Of a DNA stretch of 64,000 nt, positions 25,065-48,311 are shown one piece after another. The first letter of the stretch is position 1. Every line of letters starts with the position of its first letter. Source of the stretch: Pyramidobacter porci. Lineage in GTDB: Bacteria > Synergistota > Synergistia > Synergistales > Dethiosulfovibrionaceae. A model generated the notes under the pieces. That model saw nothing but the letters and a program-made list of their open reading frames with translations. It made no database searches and had not been told where the DNA came from. The translations under genes were made by a program, and so were the position numbers. Where the stretch lies: positions 62,001 through 126,000 of the forward strand of contig NZ_VUNH01000008.1 of assembly GCF_009695745.1 (NCBI RefSeq), read 5' to 3'.

Positions 25065-25433
25065 ATGAAGCCCAATCCTCTCGGCCCGTCGGCGAAAGTC
25101 ATGGCGCTCACGGCCGCGCTGGCGCTCGTCGTCTGCACCGTCGTGCTCTGGGGCGTCGTCGCCCGCAGCGGCAAAGTGACGCGGGACGCCGCCGAGCTGG
25201 CAGCGCGGATGCGCCTGATGGCTCCCGAACCGCAATGGAATGACCGCCTGAACCGCGCGGCGCTGGAGAAGTCTCTGCGCGCGGCCCGTCCCAATCTGCC
25301 CGAAAACGCCCAGCTCTGTTTCGTCGCGCCGTGCTGGGCCGTCGTGCACCTTGCCGACTCCTCGCTGCTGCTGCGCTGGCAGTCCGAAGCCAAGGATTTT
25401 GGCTGGACCGAACTGGACCGGGCAACGCGCTGA
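25065..25433 (+). CDS. Small single-pass membrane protein, unknown
   Basis: 122 residues. One N-terminal transmembrane segment (about 12-31, MALTAALALVVCTVVLWGVV) and an extracytoplasmic domain of about 90 residues without recognised motif; two cysteines (AQLCFVAPCWAVV) could form a disulfide. The start codon directly follows the rlmN stop codon (TAAATG), so it is in the rlmN operon and probably translationally coupled. It has no upstream ribosome site outside rlmN. I do not recognise the family. Confidence 0.6.
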   Translation: MKPNPLGPSAKVMALTAALALVVCTVVLWGVVARSGKVTRDAAELAARMRLMAPEPQWNDRLNRAALEKSLRAARPNLPENAQLCFVAPCWAVVHLADSSLLLRWQSEAKDFGWTELDRATR

Positions 25434-25457
25434 GCGCTCCGGGGGAGAACCGCAAGG

Positions 25458-25555
25458 CAAGTTACGCAGGCCGCGCAGCTCGCTTTGCGAATCTTTCTCG
25501 CAGAGCCCTTGAGTTCAGCCTTGCAACCTTATTAATAAAGAAATCGTATGACGTT
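25458..25555. repeat. Degenerate half-copy of the 47.6-kb inverted-repeat element
   Basis: The stretch GCGCAGCTCGCTTTGCGAAT followed by a CGCAGAGCC block and an AT-rich end (AATAAAGAAATCGTATG) lines up with the right half of the element at 47640-47799 (GCGCAACTCGCTTCGTGAAT, CGCAGCGCC, GAGAAATAGTAT). Aligned by eye only; no left half is seen. Confidence 0.4.
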
Positions 25556-46372: not shown

Positions 46373-47464
46373 ATGCTGAAACTGATGAGAGCCCCGCACA
46401 AATACGTTCAGGGAGAAAACGCGCTGAACGAATTCTACGACATCGTCAAGGACATGGGCACGTCGTTCCTGTTCATCTGCTCGAAAAGCGGCGAAAAGGC
46501 GTGCCGCCCCAAGATCGAGAAGAGCTGCGCCGGCAAGGACGTGACGCTGCGTTTCGAAGTGTTCGGCGGCGTCAGCTCCGTGGGCGAGATCGAGAAGATG
46601 CGCAAGATCATCCGCGACGAGAACATCGACGTGGTCGCCGGCATAGGCGGCGGCAGCGCCATCGACACGGCCAAGCCGGCAGCTTATTACGAGGGGCGCA
46701 AAGTCATCTCCATCCCCACCGTCTGCGCGACCGACGCTCCCTGCACCGGGCTGTCCGTGCTGTACGAAAACGACCACACGTTCAAGGAATACATCTTCTA
46801 CCCCAACAATCCCGACGCCGTCATCGTCGATTCCTCGATCATCTGCCAAGCTCCCGTGCGCTTCCTCGTCTCCGGCATGGGCGACGCGCTGGGAACCTAC
46901 TTCGAGGCCCGCATGTGCGAGAAGGCCAAGGCCCCCTCGCTGGAAAACGGCGGCATCACCCGTTCGGCCATGGCCCTGTGCCGGCTCTGCTACGAGACGC
47001 TGCTCGCTCACGGCGAACGCGCCAAAGCCGCCGTCGAGCTGAAACTCCTCACCCCCGACGTCGAGGCCATCATCGAGGCCAACACCTACCTCTCCGGCGT
47101 CGGCGCCGACAACGGCGGTCTGGCCACAGCCCACTCCGTTTACAACGGATTCACCGCCCTCAAGGAGCTGACGGCCATGCACGGCGAAGCCGTCGCCTTC
47201 GGCACGCTCGTGCAGCTGATCCTCGAAGGCGCGGGACGCGACGAGTTTCTCACCGTCATGGATTTCTGCCAAAAAGTCGGCCTGCCCATCACGCTGGCGG
47301 AAATGGGCGTCGCCGATCCCGAGCGGGTCATGCTCGCCGCCGAAAAAGCCTGCATTGCCGGCGAATCCATCCACAACATGATCGGCGACGTCACCCCGGC
47401 ACAGCTGTTCGACGCCATTCTCGCCGCCGACAAACTCGGCAGCGAATTCGCCGGCAAAAAATAG
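46373..47464 (+). CDS. gldA: Second glycerol dehydrogenase-type (GldA) oxidoreductase
   Basis: 363 residues, homologous over its whole length to the gene at 35718 but clearly diverged. GIGGGSAIDTAKPAAYYEG near 89, PTVCATDAPCTGLSVLYEND near 118 (core CATDAPCTGLS), SGMGDALGTYFEARMCEKA near 163, ATAHSVYNGFTALKE near 250 and AMHGEAVAFGTLVQL near 267 supply NAD and metal-binding residues. AGGAGG precedes the ATG at 46373. It follows the E2 gene after 143 bases in which I see no clear terminator, so it may be the last gene of the aco-type operon. Diol or glycerol oxidation is likely; exact substrate unknown. Confidence 0.9.
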   Translation: MLKLMRAPHKYVQGENALNEFYDIVKDMGTSFLFICSKSGEKACRPKIEKSCAGKDVTLRFEVFGGVSSVGEIEKMRKIIRDENIDVVAGIGGGSAIDTAKPAAYYEGRKVISIPTVCATDAPCTGLSVLYENDHTFKEYIFYPNNPDAVIVDSSIICQAPVRFLVSGMGDALGTYFEARMCEKAKAPSLENGGITRSAMALCRLCYETLLAHGERAKAAVELKLLTPDVEAIIEANTYLSGVGADNGGLATAHSVYNGFTALKELTAMHGEAVAFGTLVQLILEGAGRDEFLTVMDFCQKVGLPITLAEMGVADPERVMLAAEKACIAGESIHNMIGDVTPAQLFDAILAADKLGSEFAGKK

Positions 47465-47535
47465 AGCCGCTCCGCTGCCAAAAGGGGCTCATCTCGTCGT
47501 TTCAGCGCGCAAGGAAACAGGCGAATAATGCAAAG

Positions 47536-47571
47536 AAATCCCTGACGGTTACTGAAACGTCAGGGATTTTT
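47536..47571 (+). terminator. Terminator of the aco/gldA transcript
   Basis: AAATCCCTGACG (47536-47547) pairs with CGTCAGGGATTT (47558-47569) and is followed by a T-run. It precedes the third parS site. Confidence 0.85.
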
Positions 47572-47580
47572 CATAGGCAG

Positions 47581-47596
47581 TGTTCCACGTGGAACA
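47581..47596. promoter_or_regulatory. parS centromere site (ParB binding)
   Basis: TGTTCCACGTGGAACA, identical to the site at 34491. It sits in a 334-base non-coding gap just behind a terminator. Confidence 0.88.
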
Positions 47597-47639
47597 TCGC
47601 GGTCGGCACGTCTCTCTCGCTGCGGCTCCCGAGAATATC

Positions 47640-47799
47640 ATACTATTTCTCAATAGAAAGCACTCATATAGTTTGCAGGGCGCTGCGGAGGAGTTCAGTC
47701 GCTCAAGACTACCCCGACCGCTGCGCGGTCTGCGCAACTCGCTTCGTGAATCTCCCCCGCAGCGCCTCTGTGTTCGGTATTTTGATTGAGAAATAGTAT
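47640..47799. repeat. 160-bp element with 15-bp terminal inverted repeats
   Basis: ATACTATTTCTCAAT at 47640-47654 and its exact complement ATTGAGAAATAGTAT at 47785-47799 bound a 160-base segment without coding capacity. Inside, GGCGCTGCGGAGGAG and the complement of its right half also pair imperfectly, so the whole unit can fold into a long hairpin. It resembles a miniature inverted-repeat element. Its right end touches the stop codon of the next gene. A degenerate half-copy lies at 25458. Confidence 0.6.
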
Positions 47800-48311
47800 C
47801 AGAACTCCGTCAGCATCAGCGAACCGTCCTCGCCGCTCACGTTGACGGCGAAGTTCCGCGTCGCGCCGTCTTCGCCGACGTAAGAGACGCCGTTGTTGGG
47901 CAGGTCGCCGAAAAACGTTGTCACGACCGCCAGAGGATGTTCCGGCGTGAGCTGGTCGAGCCGATACAATTCCTTGACCGCGAACGAGACTTTTCCGTTT
48001 TCGTCCACGCTTTCAAACGCCAACGCCAGCACCTTGAAGTCTTTTACGGCGCGATCGGTCGAAAAGAGGATTTTTGCCTGCGGTTCCGAACTGCTGGCGA
48101 CGAACTCGCCGCAGACGGGGATTCCGGCCGGGGCGTCTTTCGCCCACTGCGCGCGCACGCGCGATTCGACGCGGTTCGCGGCCGGTGCGTTTTCTTTCGC
48201 CGGCTTGTACCCTGAAAACGGGGTCAGCTCCCGTGAAGCTGCGTTTGCCGTCGCGGCCAGCATAGCGCAGAGCGCCGACACTCCCAAAAACGATAACAAC
48301 GTGCGCTTCAT
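47799..48311 (-). CDS. Secreted protein of unknown function
   Basis: 170 residues with a Sec signal peptide (MKRTLLSFLGVSALCAMLAA, cleaved after ANA near residue 25). The mature part of about 145 residues is mainly polar with a beta-rich look (QAKILFSTDRAVKDFKVLAL, FGDLPNNGVSYVGEDGATRN) and I recognise no family. GAGGGGAAAAAC precedes the ATG at 48311. Its last codons overlap by one base the end of the inverted-repeat element, so that element may have supplied or replaced the original 3' end. Stands alone, transcribed away from the MFS gene's 3' end on the same strand. Confidence 0.65.
   Translation of the reverse strand: MKRTLLSFLGVSALCAMLAATANAASRELTPFSGYKPAKENAPAANRVESRVRAQWAKDAPAGIPVCGEFVASSSEPQAKILFSTDRAVKDFKVLALAFESVDENGKVSFAVKELYRLDQLTPEHPLAVVTTFFGDLPNNGVSYVGEDGATRNFAVNVSGEDGSLMLTEF

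Follow-up and report, generated by a model that had tools for sequence, protein, structure and literature searches.

A 158-bp MITE of Pyramidobacter porci that duplicates TNA, lies at stop codons in excess and is probably moved by an IS630-family transposase

RUP elements, described with IS630-Spn1, are short non-coding repeats whose ends resemble those of IS630-family insertion sequences (IS); their mobilization in trans has been proposed, and they are enriched between convergent genes, according to the available parts of the reports (PMC2229807, PMC3049150). Correia or NEMIS repeats of Neisseria measure 107–155 bp, have long inverted ends, give hairpin transcripts and occur in many copies, and their inversion has been reported (PMC2229807, PMC10969869, in the portions accessible). 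As for the wider IS630 group, the accessible text of two sources gives TA as the rule for the duplicated target, and TAA, TAAA or TATA for some branches (PMC7386202, PMC8533490). The locus described here has counterparts to these traits of RUP and Correia repeats. It lies in a 64,000-nucleotide stretch of P. porci DNA, the whole of which is referred to as the window. With a probability of roughly 0.88, we consider that its repeat is a MITE moved in trans by an IS630-family transposase into TNA targets, the surviving copies being concentrated at stop codons.

Alignment of 30 loci of the P. porci genome indicated that the repeat unit begins with TAC and finishes with GTA, and that it is flanked by a directly repeated TNA triplet; the element of the window is therefore the 158 bp lying between two TCA triplets (Table 1). 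An earlier sequence-only reading had proposed a 160-bp element with perfect 15-bp inverted ends (47640–47654 and 47785–47799). The repeat unit is real and these ends are perfect, but their outermost A/T pair is part of the TCA duplication and not of the element. Being short and dispersed, bounded by perfect terminal inverted repeats and devoid of a transposase gene, the 158-bp element is a MITE.

Table 1. Positions in the window of the MITE, its parts, its target and its decayed relative.
Feature	Positions	Strand	Basis or remark
MITE, 158 bp	47641–47798	+	Aligned copies; profile match E 5e-50; orthologous site empty in G004 and G005
Left copy of the TCA target duplication	47638–47640	.	Empty sites hold TCA once
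Right TCA of the target duplication, which reads TGA as the stop of the gene on the minus strand	47799–47801	.	
Left terminal inverted repeat, TACTATTTCTCAAT	47641–47654	+	First 12 bases equal to the IS end
Right terminal inverted repeat	47785–47798	-	
Inner inverted repeat, left arm (alignment columns 47–60)	47678–47691	+	Pair counts
Inner inverted repeat, right arm (alignment columns 129–142)	47754–47767	+	Pair counts
Central hairpin GACCGC-TGC-GCGGTC	47716–47730	+	One pair is C-G in 28 sequences and T-A in 14
Gene into whose TGA stop the MITE inserted; 170 aa, without a Pfam match	47799–48311	-	
Second, decayed copy	25432–25548	+	Without about 37 bp of the left end; profile E 7.1e-16; TGA at 25549–25551 follows

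Many further copies were found in the P. porci genome and its relatives, and their presence or absence varied between related genomes. The DNA search gave 67 matched stretches in the P. porci genome, partial and inverted ones included. A covariance model built from 58 copies gave 67 matches in this genome, 69 in the congener G002 and 93 in each of the congeners G004 and G005, the number of distinct copies being somewhat lower because some palindromic copies match on both strands; among the nine genomes examined it gave none in G001, G003, G006, G007, and G010, of which the first and second, congeners without the MITE, are only 82 and 83% complete. With a plain DNA query, matches appeared in 4 out of 61 genomes, all belonging to the genus of the window. 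A 26-base core of the element matched GTDB contigs exactly at 16 places, every one of them in Pyramidobacter sp. C12-8, in a search that may omit records of the window's own genome. Plasmid and phage collections contained no match to the MITE, and no publication linking Pyramidobacter with a MITE was found in a literature search. Identity of the window copy with the 69 others ranged from 74 to 89% (70 copies of 140–166 bp compared).

Some copies differed in their architecture. Three from the P. porci genome (L031, L036, and L057) were shorter derivatives with deleted cores, and L057, of 68 bp, displays a clean TGA duplication, which suggests that very short versions may still move. The core was inverted relative to the ends in two of the 70 full-length copies (L027 in P. 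porci and L235 in G002), as if recombination between the inner inverted repeats had flipped it. The decayed half-copy noticed in the first reading proved to be real, since the profile built from the 58 family copies matched it at profile positions 38–158. The called gene preceding it ends at 25433 with TGA; together with the TGA on its right, this hints that the half-copy may also have entered a stop codon, although the evidence is suggestive only.

TNA triplets were directly repeated around the copies, the target duplication of the window copy being TCA. In a set of 79 distinct copies with both ends recognizable, a TNA flanked the left end in 72, the right end in 68 and both ends in 63, the two triplets being identical in 47; this set comprised loci of the P. 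porci genome, G002, and G005 plus one locus of G004, was restricted by length, core motifs and the mismatches allowed in the ends, and excluded copies without a recognizable end. The window locus was empty in two congeners, which read GGGAATATCAGAACTCC (G004) and GGAAATATCAGAACTCC (G005) with TCA present once, whereas the occupied site reads AATATCA, then the element, and then TCAGAACTCC. This indicated a real insertion with target duplication. One locus of G005 contained two MITEs with a common TCA where G004 had one, in flanks about 99% identical. Two other candidate empty sites (in G000 for L084 and in G005 for L003) had junctions too diverged or rearranged for the duplication to be read. 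Duplication of TA by an element starting with CTATTT was ruled out, as empty sites hold one TNA and not TNA-TA-TNA. The duplication could formally be the 3-bp TNA, or 1 or 2 bp beside a conserved T and A. The wider target context leaned weakly to T-Y-TNA-R-A.

Searching G005 with the end pattern yielded 95 matches, in contrast with 10 for the reversed pattern, and led to an IS of 1114–1116 bp with ends TACTATTTCTCATT and TACTATTTCATTAT. In its two reading frames it matches NF033545, a model of IS630 transposases, as well as HTH_33 and DDE_3. Of the terminal bases of the window MITE, 12 agree with one end of the IS and 9 with its opposite end. Identical TNA triplets bordered the nine full-length IS copies (9/9; ten loci with the first end were taken, of which nine were full-length), and the G004 site corresponding to one of them was empty, with a single TCA. 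A transposase whose element has matching ends, for which the sequence-only reading had suggested looking, is present in G005, in an element alike also in its duplication. The core of the MITE is not derived from this IS; in the subterminal sequence the window copy resembled the IS weakly (154 of 2,000 shuffles were as good) and L010 more closely (3 of 2,000). The repeat family, its inverted ends, the target duplications, the empty orthologous sites, the nested-insertion difference and an IS with matching ends and duplication bear out the idea of a non-autonomous transposon. Judging from these common ends and targets, the G005 transposase probably moves the MITE in trans: it would recognize ends like TACTATTTCTYRAT and insert the 158-bp unit at TNA, with duplication of the triplet.

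The condition of the IS varied among genomes. The second frame was uninterrupted in four IS copies. No intact IS630-type transposase was found in a search of the P. porci genome, whose IS copy (C4) was decayed (88.6% identity over 1,062 of 1,116 bp) and had a broken second frame; in G002 the IS copies were damaged or partial, and in G004 there was no transposase match at all despite its 93 MITE matches. The family thus seems to persist in G004 although its likely driver has been lost or is missing from the assembly. In a survey of 185 genomes belonging to the phylum, six had matches to the first frame (E up to 1e-15). Two plasmid relatives with about 42% identity, from Caballeronia and Paraburkholderia, had inverted ends flanked by TTA at either side, and two further plasmid relatives inspected had no clear ends. 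The TTA flanks suggest that TNA duplication may mark a subgroup of IS630, a variant with respect to the TA usual in the wider group; in the literature searched we found no usable report of an IS630 element duplicating TNA, a paper on Shigella strains being judged irrelevant.

The first reading also placed the right junction of the element at a stop codon, and the TCA there indeed reads TGA for the minus-strand gene. Each of the four TNA triplets (TAA, TGA, TCA, and TTA) corresponds, on one of the two strands, to the stop codon TAA or TGA; consequently, insertion into a stop codon would rebuild the stop and leave the protein intact. Exactly in a stop codon were 16 of the 46 copies with clean duplications; the corresponding figure for the remaining eligible TNA sites in these loci was 67 of 2,331. 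One further copy lay inside a called gene. Genes were called with our own codon-usage caller, which considered 89% of the window as coding and assigned the expected strands to the genes flanking the element. Two discarded callers gave smaller excesses in the same direction (8/26 at stops, P = 0.003, and 5/40, P = 0.0017); they were judged faulty because one took long spurious frames and the other took the wrong strand beside the element. A Pfam family was above cut-off in 10 of 15 stop-site genes sent, and matches extended to the last few residues, e.g., in the Smr, 2HCT, AbrB, and L-PSP genes. None of the copies of the IS630-family IS was at a stop codon, only four of them being suitable for judgment. 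No report of an insertion pattern of this kind was found in the literature searched.

It is quite possible, if somewhat less probable than not, that the stop-codon excess reflects survival only, insertion being uniform over TNA and copies at other sites having been lost by selection. The partial texts available on RUP, BOX, and SPRITE repeats state that these survive better between convergent genes (PMC3049150), and here too 22 of 37 copies were in convergent gaps and none in divergent ones (of the 6,711 intergenic bases of the window, 848 lie in gaps of the convergent type and 1,435 in gaps of the divergent type). However, in a control restricted to the TNA sites found in the gap of each copy, 14 of 37 copies were still at stops against 6.5 expected (simulated P about 0.0008); this control covered copies with a gene on either side, six others being excluded. 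Before removal of three rows, corresponding to an orthologous insertion (L072) and to neighboring copies with a shared locus (L077 and L088), the figures were 15 of 40 and 6.9 expected. Insertion into nearby non-coding DNA, a few bases further on, should do about as little harm, yet sites just past the stop may hold terminators. Both target choice and selection may contribute to the excess; under the reading of a MITE moved in trans, rebuilding of the stop and the tolerance of gene 3′ ends would concentrate the surviving copies at stops and between convergent genes.

The partial self-complementarity perceived by the first reading was borne out, as the interior folds strongly on both strands: RNA of the element reached -70.9 and -75.9 kcal/mol for the two strands (z scores of -6.98 and -7.64), and none of 200 shuffles was as stable. 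The same reading had left the choice between a non-autonomous transposon and a structured-RNA repeat; the former stands and the latter is unneeded, even though the hairpin has been conserved and co-variation is seen at paired positions. We regard as improbable that selection maintains the repeat chiefly as a structured RNA with a function or as a 3′-end element (attenuator, stabilizer, or terminator), with transposition as its origin only. In its favor, copies sit at 3′ ends of genes and, in an alignment of 58 of the 70 copies (57 distinct; those with inverted core and some others left out), the named structure paired 93.3% of the cells and 57 cells had changed on both sides of a pair, as against 24.0 in shuffled and at most 13 in slid controls; the structure proposed by RNAalifold itself was weaker. 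On the other hand, equally strong folding on both strands is what a DNA palindrome would give, orientation with respect to the gene varied (9 opposite and 6 same), presence of a copy at the same locus differed between congeners, and subfamily descent, from which co-variation can arise, probably explains some part of it. Within positions 47400–48000 no Rfam family reached its gathering score, the two matches at E up to 1 both being below it and neither overlapping the element.

Duplication of TNA is typical of some IS5 and PIF/Harbinger elements, and IS5-family candidates were first considered for this reason. Movement of the MITE by an IS5-family transposase is very improbable: such elements do occur in the MITE-bearing genomes, some in or beside MITE copies, but their ends (TAGAGCGTGTTCAC and GGGCTTGTTTAAAAAAC) are unlike those of the MITE, their insertions had TA on both sides at nearly all sites listed, those inside a MITE are insertions into that MITE, and the IS630 element with matching ends already weakens this reading; the candidates were ruled out on ends and TA duplications. 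As a separate observation, the IS5-family element of G005 with ends GGGCTTGTTTAAAAAAC was inside a MITE in 6 of 20 distinct insertions (L264, L270, L271, L272, L278, and L280), although MITEs represent roughly 0.5% of the G005 sequence (93 matches, each of about 158 bp, in a genome of 2.78 Mb), which suggests that another transposon uses MITEs as landing pads. A second IS5-family element, with ends TAGAGCGTGTTCAC, adjoins or lies inside MITE ends in the P. porci genome (L093, L094, and L095).

With the MITE probably moved in trans by an IS630-family transposase, a TNA-duplicating IS630-type element is documented with its dependent MITE, and a MITE family is documented as persisting in genomes where an intact driver was not found. 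Coincidence of TNA with stops on both strands, together with rebuilding of the stop by the duplication, would provide a testable rule for the harmless landing of mini-transposons. A broader scenario, which we consider unlikely, is that an IS630 subgroup shifted from TA to TNA targets, stop codons became a self-repairing safe harbor, and the MITE colonized gene ends, leaving long hairpins of similar form immediately downstream of the stop in many unrelated mRNAs. If true, a set of 3′ untranslated regions spread over the whole genome would come from a single parasite.

Comparison with known systems places the element as follows. It resembles RUP in having ends that match an IS630-family IS of related genomes (12 and 9 bases; NF033545), but RUP is reported at TA targets in the source parts available, whereas the Pyramidobacter MITE and its partner IS both duplicate TNA, with one TNA in empty sites. 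RUP also differs in host phylum and ends, and is AT-rich in contrast with the GC-rich core of the MITE; a stop-codon excess was not found reported for it in those parts. Correia repeats have TA-bearing ends, according to the partial sources cited above, and the MITE is flanked by TNA. As in the IS630-Tc1-mariner group, the partner IS matches the IS630 model in two frames, unlike the group in its 3-bp TNA duplication, TA being usual there in the accessible text (PMC8533490). An IS5-derived MITE would have ends in common with an IS5-family IS, and the IS5-family elements examined had others. The MITE works like a RUP-type element, but it is not filed as a member of RUP or Correia; its movement by an IS630-family transposase is well supported, its kind is known from these two families, and its TNA duplication and stop-codon excess constitute a variant worth recording.
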